Shown here piece after piece: positions 24,692-30,791 of a stretch of 64,000 nucleotides of DNA. The notes beneath the pieces are model-generated. The model was not told the DNA's origin and ran no database searches. It was given only the letters and a program-made list of their open reading frames with translations. This DNA comes from Planctomycetota bacterium (lineage in GTDB: Bacteria; Planctomycetota; Planctomycetia; JALXBF01): the NCBI GenBank assembly GCA_026991575.1, contig JALXBF010000181.1, positions 1 through 64,000 of the forward strand, given 5' to 3'. The translations under genes were made by a program, and so were the position numbers. How positions within the stretch are numbered: the stretch's first letter is position 1; each line of letters begins with the position of its first letter.

Positions 24692-25537
24692 CTACGCGAC
24701 GATTGGGCCAGGAGTCAGATGGTAGATCTCTTCAAAGCTGTACAGTTCCAGCACGTAGTCCACGGTGGGAGGGCTGGGCGGTTGTGGCTCGCCTTTCGGA
24801 TCGGCCTCTCGTGGGATGCCCGCTACGTCGTAGCCGGGTCCACCGCGCAGTACGAAGCGCGCTCCCGGGGCACTCTCGGGCGAGAACATGGTGACCGTGT
24901 CATTGTGGCGGCCGGTGCGCACGACAAACTGAGCGCCGGGCAGCGTGGTCAAGCCGACAGTAGGTGTCATTCCCGGCTCCAGCTCCTCTGTGTCGCTCGA
25001 GCGCGGGCCACCCAGCGCCACGGTATCCCGACCGTTGCCCGTCCAGACCCCGACTCTGCGGAACAGTACCCCGCCGAGAAGCTCTACCTCATCGGCCTGG
25101 CCGCCCGTGTAGACGCGAAGCAGGTGCCCGGTGCTATCTTCGACGCGAACCTCATCGCGTCCCGAGCCCGTGCGGATGGCCACCAGGTCGGAGCTGGTTC
25201 CGGTGACGGACACGCTGTCGTTGCCGCGCCCGGTTGCGATGGCCAGACTGTTGATGCCCGGCTCCAGGGTGACGCCGTCGATCTCGATGTGGTCATGGCC
25301 GCGGCCCGTGACCACGACCAGATGACGAACGCCTACGAATGATGCCTCTGCCTGGCCATTGATAGTGGTCGAGTCAAGACCACGGACGATGACCGCGTCA
25401 TCCACCTCGGTGATCTGGATCCCGTTGGCTGCGCGGTCGCCTCGCACCAACAGAACGCCGCGCTCCATTTCGGCGATCACGTTGCCGGTGAAAACTCCGG
25501 ATAACAGACAACGGGGTTCAAGTTCTTCGATACGCAT
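24692..25537 (-). CDS. LEPR-XLL surface protein with G-x-G-x-D repeats
   Basis: 281 residues from ATG 25537. GGGAGGT lies 6 nt upstream and decides this start over in-frame codons up to 25630. The protein opens with RIEELEPRCLLSG, the LEPR-XLL motif found at the N-terminus of many planctomycete exported proteins. The rest is about seven repeats spaced near 23 residues, each ending in a turn like TGRGHDHI, TGRGNDSV, TGSGRDEV, TGGQADEV, TGNGRDTV, TGRHNDTV and RGGPGYDV. This suggests a calcium-stabilised beta-helix or beta-roll related to, but not matching, the RTX nonapeptide. Exported or surface-located by inference. A promoter with perfect TTGACA lies upstream. Confidence 0.82.
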   Translation of the reverse strand: MRIEELEPRCLLSGVFTGNVIAEMERGVLLVRGDRAANGIQITEVDDAVIVRGLDSTTINGQAEASFVGVRHLVVVTGRGHDHIEIDGVTLEPGINSLAIATGRGNDSVSVTGTSSDLVAIRTGSGRDEVRVEDSTGHLLRVYTGGQADEVELLGGVLFRRVGVWTGNGRDTVALGGPRSSDTEELEPGMTPTVGLTTLPGAQFVVRTGRHNDTVTMFSPESAPGARFVLRGGPGYDVAGIPREADPKGEPQPPSPPTVDYVLELYSFEEIYHLTPGPIVA

Positions 25538-25893
25538 GCGGAACCTCCCGAAACGTTGCGCCTTCCATTTGGCGATGGGTTCCCCAGGCAGCAGCACGTG
25601 CTTGTGCGCGGGACTGGCCCCATCGTCCACTGGCCAGACTGCGGTCGCCGCCCCACCTGTGCAAGAGGGGCTAGCGGTTCAACTAATTCCTTAGTACACT
25701 GCGCCGCGCCCCGTTGTCAAGACTAGTTGCGCTCCGTGGCGGATTGTGCCCGTGCGGCTGGGACGCCCGCGTGGGGAGGTGTTGGGCGTTGCGTTGAACG
25801 GCTCCGTGTCCGCTTTCCGCGTGATCTGTCCGGGGGCGCGTGCGGAAGGAGGGAATCAGGCCCCGTGCAACACGGCTGCGACAGATGCTTGTT
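25538..25893. other. Intergenic region upstream of the LEPR-XLL gene
   Basis: 356 nt. It holds the promoter candidate at 25691-25720 and therefore a leader of about 150 nt. An in-frame extension of the LEPR-XLL gene up to 25630 is rejected because of the clear Shine-Dalgarno at the internal start. No other gene seen. Confidence 0.5.
25691..25720 (-). promoter_or_regulatory. Sigma-70-like promoter for the LEPR-XLL gene
   Basis: Minus strand TTGACA (25720-25715, perfect), 18-nt spacer, TACTAA (25696-25691, three of six). The predicted leader is about 145 nt long. Confidence 0.42.
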
Positions 25894-26894: not shown

Positions 26895-28226
26895 CTACCG
26901 CTGCTGCCTCCTACCAGCCGTTACCGGCAAGTCGTGCGATTCGGGTAACGGGATACCAAAAATCCGACACGGACTCTCCACCAGGATCTGCCACGCAAGA
27001 CGAACGGCTCGCTCGGCCGTCCAGCCTCTACCGATGACGAACTGCTCGGCCAGCACCTCAGCCAACACTCGGCGATACATGGCGAACTTCGGAAGCACGA
27101 ATTCCAGCCGGTAGGCATCCGAGTAGTAGCCGATCTGCTTCACGGCAGGGACCGCCGTTAGTCGGGCCGACAGGTCAATGCGAATGTAAGGGGGGACATT
27201 GGCGTACCACCAGTGCCCGTGTGCCACGACGTTGGGAAAGATCCACGCGAACGCCATCAACTCCGGATTGAGCGAATGCGATAGTACCGAGATCGGGAAG
27301 GTTACGTTGGGGAACGCATTGAACAGTTCGGCGTACTGATACAGGCTCCAACGGCTATCCAGCAGGTCTTGACCTTGATAGACTCCTTCGCGGTACACGT
27401 TGCGGTAGACGCCGATCATCAGGTCGAAGGGCAGGCGGAAGTCGTCGCAGAGCCGGGCAAGCGTCCAGAACACGAACCGACTGACCTGTTCCCGGTCAGC
27501 CGGCAGCGGATGGCGCGTGCGAAGCAGCCGGTCCAGCGCAGGAGCCACCTCGCCGCCTGTCACCGGCGCCGGGTGGAACCGTGGGGGAAGCGAGATTGCA
27601 CAGGCGCGCGCGCCGCGTTCGACAAAGTGCTCGAACAGCGCCCCCAGCGCACGCTCCAACGACGCCGCGTCTGTGACCTCGACGTTCGTCGCTTCCGCCA
27701 ACCGCTCGCGAACGCTCAGCTCCGCCAGCCGGAAGACCAGTTCATCCGTGCGCAGGCAGGGCACGTAGAACGCGGTGTCGAATCCATCGAGCGGATCATC
27801 GAAGTCGTTCGTCAGGAACACGCACACCAGGCGGCTGCGTCGGATGACCGTCTCTGTCCAGTCAGCCCGCTGGAAAGCACGGTCACAGGCCTGCCAGACA
27901 GCATCGATGTTTTCCGGTCCGATCCGCTCGCACTCGAACCCGACCAATTCCCGTACGATGAATTCCAGCCAGGTGTACTGCACGGTGTTTTCCAGAGCCG
28001 GCAGGTACTCGGCCAGCGCGCGAACACGCAGCTGCGGCTCCACGTCGGCGGCCAAGAGCCTTTTGTCCAGGCCAGCCGAGTGGGCAAGCTCCGTGTAGTA
28101 GTGATAGCCGAGGATGTCGTCTAGGGAGCGTGCCACGGGCTGCAGCGGCTGAATGTGCGTGTGCGGATCGACCAGCGGAAATTCCTCAAGCGCCTGATAG
28201 AGTTCCTCGACTAAGCGAAGCTCCAT
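26895..28226 (-). CDS. Uronate isomerase-like amidohydrolase-superfamily protein
   Basis: 443 residues from ATG 28226, chosen because GGGAGG lies 8 nt upstream; an in-frame start at 28289 would only add an Arg/Ser-rich tail. The barrel opens with LVDPHTHIQ, with the metal-binding H-x-H at residues 22-24. The C-terminal part VVAHGHWWYANVP, DLSARLTAVPAVKQIGYYSDAYR and KFAMYRRVLAEVL follows the pattern of the uronate isomerase (UxaC) family, though it is divergent. UxaC interconverts D-glucuronate/D-galacturonate and their ketoses. The SDR gene follows. The start codon overlaps the start codon of the divergent cytochrome gene, so its promoter must lie inside that gene. Confidence 0.82.
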   Translation of the reverse strand: MELRLVEELYQALEEFPLVDPHTHIQPLQPVARSLDDILGYHYYTELAHSAGLDKRLLAADVEPQLRVRALAEYLPALENTVQYTWLEFIVRELVGFECERIGPENIDAVWQACDRAFQRADWTETVIRRSRLVCVFLTNDFDDPLDGFDTAFYVPCLRTDELVFRLAELSVRERLAEATNVEVTDAASLERALGALFEHFVERGARACAISLPPRFHPAPVTGGEVAPALDRLLRTRHPLPADREQVSRFVFWTLARLCDDFRLPFDLMIGVYRNVYREGVYQGQDLLDSRWSLYQYAELFNAFPNVTFPISVLSHSLNPELMAFAWIFPNVVAHGHWWYANVPPYIRIDLSARLTAVPAVKQIGYYSDAYRLEFVLPKFAMYRRVLAEVLAEQFVIGRGWTAERAVRLAWQILVESPCRIFGIPLPESHDLPVTAGRRQQR

Positions 28227-30474
28227 GAACAGGCCTCCCGCTGACGGACAACTCGACCGTGCTCGCCGTGCCCGGCTGGCTGTAATCATACTCGCAGTCC
28301 TGGCTGCCGCCGTAGGGGGGCTGATCTGGTACGGTTGGCAACCGGCCTACCGGAGCACGGGTCGGTTTGCCGGTTCTGAGCGGTGTGCCGCGTGTCACGC
28401 GGACCAGTTCGACCGCTGGCGCCGCTCACACCACGGTTTGGCCGAGCGGCCGGTGCAGGCAGAGGCGGACCGGCGTGCCTTCGAGCCGGCGCGGCAGATC
28501 GAACACGGGTCGGTGAAATCCGAAGTCCGCTTGGACAAGACCGAAGACGCCCTACGGTTTGTCATTCGGACGCTCGGTGACGACGGCCAGTATCGGGAAT
28601 ACACGGCGGAGCGAGTGATCGGGACCGATCCGTTGCGCCAGTTCCTGGTGCGGTTCGCACGAGGCCGCTGGCAGGTTACCGCACTGGCTTACGACCCGAA
28701 TGCTGACGAGTGGTTCGATGTCTTCGGGGACGAGGACCGCAAGCCGCATGAGTGGGGGTTCTGGGCCAACCGCGGCATGACCTGGAACACGATGTGTGCC
28801 ACGTGCCACGTGACCGACTTCGTCAAGCGGTACGATCCGCAGCGCGACGAGTATCGGTCAACCTGGCAGGAGCTTGCCGTGGGGTGTGAAGCGTGCCACG
28901 GCCTGGCGGCGGATCATGCGGAATGGCAGGAGCGTTATGGTCCGGCGCGCGACGACCCGACGCTGCCGCGGCTGAGCAAGAAGCAATGGGTTGACACATG
29001 CGGTGCCTGTCACGCGCGGCGTTCGGCCCTTGTGGAACCGTTTCGTCCCGGCGTGCCCTTCCTGGATCAGTTCTTGCCGGTTCTGCCCGATCTGTCCGAG
29101 ACCTACTATCCGGACGGCCAGGTGCGCGAGGAGAACTACGAGTACACCTCGTTTCTGCTTAGCCGCATGTACCACGAGGGCGTCTACTGCATGGACTGCC
29201 ATGACGCCCACGACGGCAGCTTGTTGCGCGAGGGGAACAACCTGTGTCTGAAATGCCACGCCGGCAAGATCGATCCGGTGCAGCACAGCCGGCACAGGCT
29301 CGACGGACCGGGCGGTCGATGCGTCAACTGCCACATGCCGATCACGGTCTACATGCAACGGGATCCGCGGCGTGACCATGGGTTCACGATTCCGGACCCG
29401 AAGCTGACCATCGAGTACGGCATCCCGAACGCATGCAATCGGTGTCACGAGGACAAGACTCCTGAGTGGGCGTTGGAGGTGGTCGAACAGTGGTATGGGG
29501 AGCGTATGGACCGGATCACGCGGCGCCGCGCCGTAGCGGTGGCCCGAGCCCGCCGGGGGGAGCTCGCCGTCATCCCGGAATTACTCGAGCTTCTGGAGGA
29601 AGACCCGTACCCGGAGTGGCGCGCCGTGTTTGCGCTCTGCTTGCGACCGTGGCGAACCCAGCCGCAGGTAGCGGCCGCGTTGCTCAAGGCTGCGCAAAGC
29701 GAACATCCGATGCTCCAATGGGCAGCAGCCCGCGCGCTCGATCCGGAACGGGAACCGCCGCCGGACCTGTCGGTGCTACTGGATCATCCCAGGCGGGCGG
29801 TCCGAGTCCAAGCGGCGTGGGCTATGAGGAAGGTACTGAAGGAGGACGCGCCGGTCATGCGTGAACTCCGGCAGTTCCTGGAACTGCAGCTGGACCAGCC
29901 TACCGGCCGCATGATGCAGGGCATTTACGCAAAGGACCGCGGCCGACTTGATGAGGCCGAACGGTGGTTCCGCAAGGCGTTGGCGCTTGAGCCGTACAGT
30001 CCGGTGCCGTGGGAGGCGATTGCGGTCATGTACAGCGAAGCGGGCAACGTTGAACGGGCGCTTGAGGTGCTGGACGAAGCGTGTGAGGCGTTGCCCCAGC
30101 AAGCCCGCCTCCACTACCTGCGGGGACTGGCCCTGGCGGAGGCGGGGCGGCTACCGGCTGCGACTGCCGCACTACAAGAGGCGGTAAGACTTGATGCCGG
30201 CCTTGCCCGCGCCTGGTACAACCTGGCTCTCGCGCGGCATCGCCTTGGTCAGCAGAACCTGGCCTTGCGCGCGCTGCGCACCGCTCTGGACCTTGAACCG
30301 GACAACAGTGACTTTGCCTTCGCCCTGGCGACCATCTACCGCGATATCGGCAGGCGCGATCAGGCGATACGATGGGCCCGGCGGACGCTGACGCTGAACC
30401 CGCTGCATCGCGGTGCAGCTGCGCTGCTGGAGCAGTTGGGGCAGCGTCCGGACGGTGGCGAGCGTACCCGTTGA
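28225..30474 (+). CDS. Octaheme c-type cytochrome fused to HEAT-like and TPR repeats
   Basis: 749 residues. A membrane anchor (about 18-38) is followed by eight CxxCH heme sites: CAACH (54-58), then CATCH, CEACH, CGACH, CMDCH, CLKCH, CVNCH and CNRCH (about 190, 221, 258, 321, 341, 365 and 403). These fit the cytochrome c554/doubled-CxxCH group of periplasmic multiheme electron carriers. Residues about 430-550 are HEAT-like (EYPEWRAVFALCL and LQWAAARALDPE style helices). About 555-735 are TPRs (DEAERWFRKALALEPYSPVPWE, ARAWYNLALARHRLGQQNLA). Electron donor and acceptor are unknown. No Shine-Dalgarno is clear. A Dabb-domain gene follows at 11 nt. Start-codon overlap with the gene to the left is noted under findings. 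Confidence 0.88.
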   Translation: MNRPPADGQLDRARRARLAVIILAVLAAAVGGLIWYGWQPAYRSTGRFAGSERCAACHADQFDRWRRSHHGLAERPVQAEADRRAFEPARQIEHGSVKSEVRLDKTEDALRFVIRTLGDDGQYREYTAERVIGTDPLRQFLVRFARGRWQVTALAYDPNADEWFDVFGDEDRKPHEWGFWANRGMTWNTMCATCHVTDFVKRYDPQRDEYRSTWQELAVGCEACHGLAADHAEWQERYGPARDDPTLPRLSKKQWVDTCGACHARRSALVEPFRPGVPFLDQFLPVLPDLSETYYPDGQVREENYEYTSFLLSRMYHEGVYCMDCHDAHDGSLLREGNNLCLKCHAGKIDPVQHSRHRLDGPGGRCVNCHMPITVYMQRDPRRDHGFTIPDPKLTIEYGIPNACNRCHEDKTPEWALEVVEQWYGERMDRITRRRAVAVARARRGELAVIPELLELLEEDPYPEWRAVFALCLRPWRTQPQVAAALLKAAQSEHPMLQWAAARALDPEREPPPDLSVLLDHPRRAVRVQAAWAMRKVLKEDAPVMRELRQFLELQLDQPTGRMMQGIYAKDRGRLDEAERWFRKALALEPYSPVPWEAIAVMYSEAGNVERALEVLDEACEALPQQARLHYLRGLALAEAGRLPAATAALQEAVRLDAGLARAWYNLALARHRLGQQNLALRALRTALDLEPDNSDFAFALATIYRDIGRRDQAIRWARRTLTLNPLHRGAAALLEQLGQRPDGGERTR

Positions 30475-30485
30475 AGGAGATAGCC

Positions 30486-30791
30486 ATGGCAGTACAGCAC
30501 ATCGTGCTCTTCAAGTTTAAGCCCGGCACGGTCGAGTCGAAGATCCGCGAGCTGTTCGACGAGCTGGCCGGGCTGCAGCAGAAGATCCCCGGAATCCTCT
30601 ACTTTGCCGGGGGACCGTACTCCAGCCCCGAAGGGCTGAACCGGGGCTACACGCATGGGTTTATCATGACGTTCGAATCACCTGAGGCACGCGACGCTTA
30701 CCTGCCGCACCCAGAGCACGAGCGGGTCAAGGAGATGATCCTGCCCCACGTCGAGGATGTGATTGCCTTTGACTTTGAGGTTCCCCGGTAG
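30486..30791 (+). CDS. Dabb-domain (stress-responsive alpha/beta-barrel) protein
   Basis: 101 residues from ATG 30486, with GAAGGAGA at 30473-30480 (an open frame further upstream is ignored). The sequence AVQHIVLFKFKPGT, then GPYSSPEGLNRGYTHGFIMTFES, ARDAYLPHPEHERVKEMILPHVEDVIAFDFEV, is the Dabb pattern (PF07876). Such proteins are small dimeric barrels, some of them enzymes acting on aromatic or polyketide substrates, others of unknown role. The end of the cytochrome gene overlaps the Shine-Dalgarno of this one, so they are probably cotranscribed. Confidence 0.93.
   Translation: MAVQHIVLFKFKPGTVESKIRELFDELAGLQQKIPGILYFAGGPYSSPEGLNRGYTHGFIMTFESPEARDAYLPHPEHERVKEMILPHVEDVIAFDFEVPR

Follow-up and report, generated by a model that had tools for sequence, protein, structure and literature searches.

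An apparently undescribed bacterial family of membrane-anchored octahaem cytochromes with a HEAT/TPR arm, related to OcwA and MccA

Multihaem cytochromes of the NrfA/HAO superfamily include several reductases in which one haem of the chain serves as the catalytic site. In the description of OcwA, the nonahaem reductase of Thermincola potens, haems 1-4 and 6-9 are reported to superpose on those of MccA, and a beta-sheet subdomain is given as common to these two proteins within the NrfA family (PMC6703420). The same text places the active site of OcwA, MccA and cytochrome c554 at haem 2 and describes haems 1, 3, 4, 6, 7 and 8 of OcwA as bis-His ligated, haem 9 as His/Met, and haems 2 and 5 as open (PMC6703420). 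For NrfA and the octahaem nitrite reductases, a second paper describes a CXXCK motif at the active-site haem, although some NrfA differ (PMC12285233). Here we compare with these systems a gene on contig JALXBF010000181.1 of a Planctomycetota bacterium (assembly GCA_026991575.1), of which positions 1 to 64,000, hereafter the window, were analysed. The open reading frame at 28225-30474 (+) encodes a protein of 749 amino acids (aa) that carries a membrane anchor, eight haem-binding sites, HEAT repeats and a TPR array in one chain, and it belongs to a widespread and apparently undescribed bacterial family.

Our preferred reading, to which we give a probability of roughly 0.5 and which draws on sequence and models, is that the protein is a membrane-anchored octahaem oxidoreductase that is fed by quinol, has an open haem 2 and carries a solenoid for docking.

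The haem half and its kinship with OcwA and MccA

Because TPR proteins filled the fold search made with the full-length chain, the haem domain was folded and searched separately. The model of residues 41-445 (predicted local distance difference test score, pLDDT, 92.5; predicted template-modelling score, pTM, 0.88) has OcwA as its top Foldseek match at 1.3e-14, and the other matches below 0.001 are to MccA only. With VIA-align the domain superposes on OcwA with Z 21.6 and a root-mean-square deviation of 3.0 Å over 327 residues, on OmhA with Z 14.2 over 274 residues and on MccA with Z 9.7, while NrfA (Z 6.6), the octahaem nitrite reductases (5.6-5.8) and c554 (5.0) lie below the value of about 8 under which the tool's own note calls a Z score weak. 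A profile of 75 rows matches OcwA at 1.3e-27, OmhA at 1.1e-17, c554 at 1.3e-8, HAO at about 1e-5 and MccA at 6e-5; HAO is not among the fold matches listed, which says nothing against kinship with it. The model contains the beta-sheet subdomain, and on this modelled fold the haem half is related to the OcwA/MccA branch of the NrfA/HAO superfamily. Since the protein-only model superposes on OcwA, the haems should pack as a chain like that of OcwA, which supports the suggestion of a first-pass annotation of this DNA that the gene product is a multihaem protein for electron transfer, with an anchor and a compact haem domain. The same annotation had assigned the cytochrome to the c554 type; c554 is indeed a relative, a remote one, but OcwA, OmhA and MccA are all closer.

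The remaining parts of the architecture had also been read from the sequence beforehand, and they are borne out. Eight CxxCH sites are present (residues 54, 191, 221, 259, 322, 341, 366 and 404), whereas in 20,000 shuffled versions of the protein such sites averaged 0.013 and never exceeded one. The anchor is predicted both by hydropathy, the best 19-residue Kyte-Doolittle mean being 2.49 for the segment starting at residue 18, and by a helix of the model; after residue 60 no 19-residue segment exceeds 1.6. Pfam matches Cytochrome_C7, Paired_CXXCH_1 and Cytochrome_C554 on the haem half, and on the C-terminal half HEAT_2 at residues 450-534 (2e-8) and TPR families over about residues 548-741 (best 4e-23), so that the HEAT-like helices and TPR array do stand in one chain, as they also do in the relatives. 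The full-length AlphaFold2 model, made from the window's sequence and 74 relatives, has a pLDDT of 93.1 and a pTM of 0.89. The features are as follows.

28225..30474, + strand: octahaem c-type cytochrome with HEAT and TPR repeats; 749 aa, at least 389 relatives
28270..28335, + strand: predicted membrane anchor, residues 16-37 (hydropathy; model helix 11-37)
28384..28398, + strand: haem site 1, CAACH, residue 54; C and H invariant in 75/75 rows
28492..28719, + strand: beta-sheet subdomain, residues 90-165 (strands in the model)
28795..28809, + strand: haem site 2, CATCH, residue 191; aligned with OcwA haem 2, candidate active-site haem, probably open
28885..28899, + strand: haem site 3, CEACH, residue 221 (motif scan and conservation)
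28999..29013, + strand: haem site 4, CGACH, residue 259 (motif scan and conservation)
29113..29133, + strand: D297-G298-Q299-x3-E303 between haem sites 4 and 5; invariant in 75/75 rows
29188..29202, + strand: haem site 5, CMDCH, residue 322; aligned with OcwA haem 6
29245..29259, + strand: haem site 6, CLKCH, residue 341 (motif scan and OcwA profile alignment)
29320..29334, + strand: haem site 7, CVNCH, residue 366 (motif scan and OcwA profile alignment)
29434..29448, + strand: haem site 8, CNRCH, residue 404; aligned with OcwA haem 9
29572..29826, + strand: HEAT repeats, residues 450-534, with invariant R527 (PF13646)
29851..30435, + strand: TPR array, residues 543-737 (Pfam TPR families; model helices)
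30486..30791, + strand: neighbouring Dabb-domain gene, 101 aa (PF07876, E 9e-31), probably not a functional part

In the OcwA alignments, CxxCH sites 1-4 of the window's protein correspond to OcwA haems 1-4 and sites 5-8 to OcwA haems 6-9, and OcwA haem 5 has no counterpart. Histidines outside the CxxCH motifs are kept in all 75 rows at H70, H329, H354, H357 and H385, and H231 is kept in 66 of the 75 and in 21 of 21 rows of an alignment with genes from the same class; M315, M371 and M377 are invariant in the 75 rows, as are S313 in the haem half and R527 in the HEAT part. Six histidines and one methionine for eight haems would fit six bis-His haems, one His/Met haem and one open haem, that is, the OcwA set minus haem 5. 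Because the alignment pairs the eight haems with OcwA haems 1-4 and 6-9, and haem 2 is the active site of OcwA and MccA, the open haem is probably haem 2, a candidate by ligand count rather than by structure.

Two observations concern the start of the protein. The sequence CATG at 28224-28227 holds the likely start codons both of the octahaem gene (+) and of a divergent UxaC-like gene at 26895-28226 (-), and the two share two bases; the overlap leaves no space between them for ordinary promoters, and the N-terminus that follows from the ATG at 28225 is for this reason not certain to the residue. A lipobox-like signal, scored by a simple motif, precedes the first haem site in 16 of 95 members (the 75 alignment rows and 20 proteins from the same class), which suggests that the anchor is a lipid in some members and a helix in others.

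A conserved fusion and the origin of the window's copy

Relatives were sought in 58 other genomes of the same class (class-mates, none of them from the window's own family) and in a contig scan of GTDB genomes, which gave at least 589 pattern matches and at least 389 relatives; the best 80 of these are referred to as named loci. Of the 58 class-mates, 20 carry a full-length frame strongly homologous in its haem half, and each of these frames has eight CxxCH. The eight sites are likewise kept in 79 of the 80 named loci, and the remaining one (L096) has seven, the contig being cut within the gene at its start. The best BLAST segment reaches query residue 680 or beyond in 76 of the 80, the shorter ones being those of L076 and L093, which end at a contig edge, L069, which stops at 535, and L136, which stops at 611. 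Among 60 members (the window's protein and 59 relatives), Cytochrome_C554 was matched in all, TPR_1 in 59 and HEAT_2 in 49. Since the haem, HEAT and TPR parts are conserved together, the protein represents one old architecture and not a chance fusion. At E<=1e-60 the family was found in 84 of 294 sampled Planctomycetota genomes and 70 of 240 sampled Verrucomicrobiota genomes, counts whose weaker matches may belong to a neighbouring subfamily, and further loci come from Bacteroidota, Pseudomonadota, Thermodesulfobacteriota and Calditrichota. Plasmid records name its members only as "tetratricopeptide repeat protein", "multiheme c-type cytochrome", "cytochrome c3 family protein" or "hypothetical protein"; no paper describing the family was found in the literature searched, which omits most subscription journals and is no proof of novelty.

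The window's gene does not group with those of its class-mates. In a 95-row tree it falls in a branch of 27 rows (support 100), the others being 25 Verrucomicrobiota and one Myxococcota, and the 20 class-mates stand apart. Adding 13 rows left this placement unchanged, and forcing the window's gene together with 22 planctomycete rows was rejected by the approximately unbiased test at p 4.9e-11, for a group chosen after the first tree had been seen and with both trees being quick searches. From this position in the Verrucomicrobiota clade, the copy was probably acquired, and horizontal transfer from Verrucomicrobiota is its likely origin; it may instead be an ancient paralogue. The class-mate genes are thus relatives of the window's gene and not strict orthologues.

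The alignment with OcwA ends at OcwA residue 466 of 525, roughly where the C-terminal bundle has its first helix, and the window's chain continues as HEAT and TPR helices. We read this, from the models, as a solenoid in place of most of OcwA's C-terminal three-helix bundle, and a role of the repeat arm in docking partner proteins is plausible. The solenoid is shorter in some members, which have about 650 aa (L185, L190, L191), and the Methylosinus gene among them is followed by genes for a 2Fe-2S protein and a molybdopterin-binding subunit. The window's genome contains a second cytochrome-TPR fusion, apparently of a different kind, of 529 aa with five CxxCH (contig C166, L154:3361-4950).

One could also read the TPR arm as a built-in haem-attachment adaptor like NrfG or CcmI, whose only task would be to mature the eight-haem domain. 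CcmI and NrfG belong to system I of cytochrome c assembly, whereas the window's genome contains ResB and gives no match to CcmF_C, and its cytochrome c assembly therefore looks like system II. PF23914, the CcmH/CycH TPR family, matches 48 of the 60 members (the window's protein at 5e-6, below the family cut-off), as might be expected of such an adaptor, but TPR families cross-match freely. Binding of NrfA by NrfG and CcmI through their TPRs, as PMC12285233 describes it, would offer a precedent. On balance we consider this adaptor role very improbable and retain the docking solenoid.

Gene neighbourhoods and the proposed function

Nine of the 80 named loci (L097, L105, L106, L113, L121, L123, L126, L127 and L134) have a Rieske gene upstream of the octahaem gene and in the same orientation, at a spacing of at most 20 bp in seven of them and of about 0.5-0.6 kb in L105 and L121. 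Cytochrome b is encoded there in eight of the nine, L123 being a cut locus, and the nine make up one branch of the tree together with L124, whose contig start is too near to judge. The order cytochrome b - Rieske - octahaem is found in Aureibacter too. The remaining named loci, some of which lack upstream sequence, and the 20 class-mate loci gave no match to either gene. It is this recurrence of Rieske and cytochrome b genes in one clade and in Aureibacter that supports quinol feeding.

If the preferred reading of a quinol-fed oxidoreductase is correct, the protein would be an extracytoplasmic, membrane-anchored octahaem c-type enzyme of the OcwA/MccA branch that receives electrons from the quinol pool, in one clade via the cytochrome b/Rieske unit encoded beside it and in the window's clade from another donor. 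Electrons would then travel along the haem chain and, if we have the direction right, exit at haem 2, where a small acceptor could be reduced at the open iron site, with the solenoid keeping a partner protein beside the haem domain. Several observations weigh against this. Neither Rieske nor cytochrome b is encoded beside the window's gene, its contig has no Rieske gene, and the best tblastn match in the window has E 0.098; neighbours hardly recur in the 24 loci of the window's clade, judged from the two genes listed on each side. The ligand count may mislead, since one of H354 and H357 sits at the OcwA His-His motif of the missing haem 5. MccA has a CX15CH motif at haem 2, which the family lacks, so that the substrate of MccA is not transferable.

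The same gene order admits a different role, in which the protein would be a pure electron carrier that replaces cytochrome c1/f, taking electrons from Rieske/cytochrome b to periplasmic acceptors chosen by the TPR arm, with no catalysis at haem 2. The cytochrome b - Rieske - octahaem order of the one clade would suit such a carrier, as would the Kuenenia complexes, two of which, according to PMC12954380, have hexa- or octahaem cytochromes standing in for cytochrome f. Against it, the proteins closest in structure are reductases whose haem 2 is active, and 71 of the 80 named loci (some without upstream sequence) and the window have no adjoining Rieske. We regard a pure carrier as unlikely, though worth keeping in mind beside the oxidoreductase that we prefer.

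Within the window's clade, L065 and L083 share a convergent SDR gene on the downstream side. A sulfatase gene stands upstream in L079 and in the closely related L066 and L068, and two genes upstream in L071; no other recurrence was noticed. Co-occurrence with dehydrogenase-type genes had been proposed as a check in the first-pass annotation; no dehydrogenase recurs as a neighbour, and it is cytochrome b/Rieske and sulfatases, in other clades, that do.

On plasmids, a sulfatase gene stands no more than 2.2 kb from the octahaem gene in 15 of the 19 loci that were annotated (L182-L193, L214, L219, L220), and at least seven loci have the order arylsulfatase - HAD hydrolase - octahaem. Seven of the 15 are from Rhizobium, Sinorhizobium or Roseibium, so that far fewer lineages than loci are represented. 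The sulfatase loci include rhizobial symbiosis megaplasmids and a P. carrageenovora plasmid. The four without a sulfatase are from Granulicella (L215, a cytochrome-only relative, 26% identical), Qingshengfaniella (L216), Alteromonas (L217) and Alloyangia (L218). A formylglycine-site motif was read in 10 of the 15 (CTPGR in four, CTAGR in four, CSPTR in Methylosinus, none seen in two Aureibacter pieces), and the CTAGR/CTPGR sulfatases, 8 of the 10 typed, form a distinct group. In plasmid records with coordinates for both genes, the two lie within 3.4 kb in 19 of 20; the exception, NZ_CP140914, has two places of each gene, and the best ones are about 200 kb apart.

On chromosomes, 20 of 100 loci have a sulfatase within 10 kb, and 12 of 21 sulfatase places fall within 2 kb, a zone that holds 27% of the sequence (p 0.0035; the queries were partly drawn from plasmid loci, within 7 kb). 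Mapped on the tree, with 16 rows labelled, four of them without a motif reading (L144, L183, L188, L192), the link takes seven changes, at least five of them by well-supported branches. Of 294 Planctomycetota genomes, 84 have the octahaem gene, 40 a CTAGR-type sulfatase and 20 both (Fisher p 0.0017, without control for phylogeny); among those 20, the two genes lie within 1 kb in G108 and G300 and within 20 kb in two more (G154, G217). In the window itself no sulfatase was found by tblastn at E<=1e-3. Its genome has 32 matches to PF00884, none of them on the window's own contig (C181), and no CTAGR/CTPGR-type sulfatase at E<=1e-100.

If these associations reflect function, the octahaem protein might be a redox partner of secreted sulfatases that, for example, makes or keeps their formylglycine while the solenoid grips the sulfatase. 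The close spacing on plasmids, the chromosomal crowding within 2 kb and the adjacency in the planctomycetes G108 and G300 all favour such a partnership; yet the four plasmid loci without a sulfatase speak against it, as do the absence of sulfatase matches from the window's contig and of CTAGR/CTPGR-type ones from its genome, even if that genome has the 32 matches elsewhere, and the proposed chemistry is an oxidation whereas the Rieske clade suggests a supply of reduced electrons. We think it improbable. A broader proposal, doubtful as well but marginally less so, is an apparently undescribed cross-phylum redox module in which the octahaem oxidoreductase and its HEAT/TPR arm would work on or with secreted sulfatases, above all the CTAGR/CTPGR type, with quinol feeding by its own cytochrome b/Rieske in some lineages, and in which the window's copy would be a stand-alone one, acquired from Verrucomicrobiota, with partners encoded elsewhere in its genome. 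If true, the module would link respiration with sulfate-ester metabolism in settings that range from the symbiosis megaplasmids of rhizobia to bacteria of marine and anaerobic habit. The sulfatase link may not apply to the window's copy.

The window's own downstream neighbour offers a last candidate partner. The Dabb-domain gene reported there by the first-pass annotation is confirmed on the same strand; a gap of 11 bases separates its start codon from the stop codon of the cytochrome, AAGGAG stands 5' of its ATG, and this spacing and good ribosome site are what favour the idea, put forward at the same time, that the Dabb protein acts with the cytochrome. Dabb genes occur in 41 of 44 genomes searched, and yet tblastn detected none beside the octahaem gene: the best E value was 0.69 in the 20 class-mate loci and 0.29 in the 80 named loci, the latter for a match of 26 residues in L087. 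More than 500 bp of downstream sequence is present in 89 of the 100. None lies near it in the 20 class-mate genomes either, the closest on the same contig being about 146 kb off (G034); in G334 the octahaem locus (L065) is on C297 and the Dabb genes are on C12 and C214. For the rest of the 24 genomes reached via named loci, absence refers to tblastn within the loci only. As a conserved partner Dabb was rejected on this 0 of 100 linkage, the pairing is refuted as a general rule, and we attach next to no credence to joint action of the two proteins.

Further genes were noted in passing. In three loci of one planctomycete family the gene directly upstream of the octahaem gene (L039:10898-11542, L043:6552-7235, L044:7245-7886) encodes a winged-helix regulator that looks SufR-like by eye and whose Cys-rich C-terminal part is conserved. 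On contig C114 of the window's genome (L150:1899-7964) lies another haem cluster, which resembles the nitrate-to-ammonium cluster of Caldithrix abyssi described in PMC5317091. It encodes a large oxidoreductase, NapA-like by eye, together with Rieske and cytochrome b proteins, a tetrahaem protein and a protein of 465 aa that has eight CxxCH. At 24692-25630 (-) of the window, an open reading frame with no Pfam match has a stretch LEPRCLLSG near its start. We take this stretch to be a planctomycete surface-protein motif.

The family is a common one, with a haem that its sequence marks as likely catalytic and an interaction arm as a constant part of the chain. Since certain neighbours recur in some clades, its role could be tested in rhizobia that lend themselves to experiment; in Sinorhizobium meliloti 1021 the octahaem gene is on pSymA (match at 944409-945566 of NC_003037).

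Comparison with described systems

The window's protein lacks the defining features of OcwA, MccA, NrfA and c554 proper. All eight of its sites are CxxCH, and none is the CXXCK of NrfA-type enzymes. Cytochrome c554 (PDB 1FT5/1FT6) is alike in the region of haem sites 1-4 and in the Pfam family Cytochrome_C554, but has four haems rather than eight. OmhA of Carboxydothermus ferrireducens (PDB 6QVM), which stands between OcwA and MccA in both the profile and the superposition values given above, is an S-layer protein with eleven haems in which no HEAT/TPR was seen. The octahaem sulfite reductase MccA/SirA (PDB 4RKM) shares the beta-sheet subdomain and, via the OcwA alignment, the eight-haem set; the window's protein differs in the plain CxxCH of its haem 2 (residues 191-195, 75/75 rows) and in its HEAT/TPR arm, and its likeness to MccA is far below that to OcwA.

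A different kind of likeness, drawn by description alone, is to the Kuenenia complexes Kustd1480-1485 and Kuste4569-4574, in which, according to PMC12954380, a multihaem cytochrome c takes the place of cytochrome f beside Rieske/cytochrome b; Kustd1485 is described there as large, with long helices wrapping the complex.

OcwA (PDB 6I5B), the nonahaem cell-surface reductase described in PMC6703420, is set apart by its ninth haem, whereas eight CxxCH are found in the window's protein and in 79 of the 80 named loci, haem 5 being the missing one, and the window's protein has in addition a predicted membrane anchor and, as we read the models, HEAT/TPR repeats in place of most of the three-helix bundle. 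The two proteins nevertheless share the fold of the haem domain, as modelled, the order of their haem sites, the beta-sheet subdomain and the position of haem 2.

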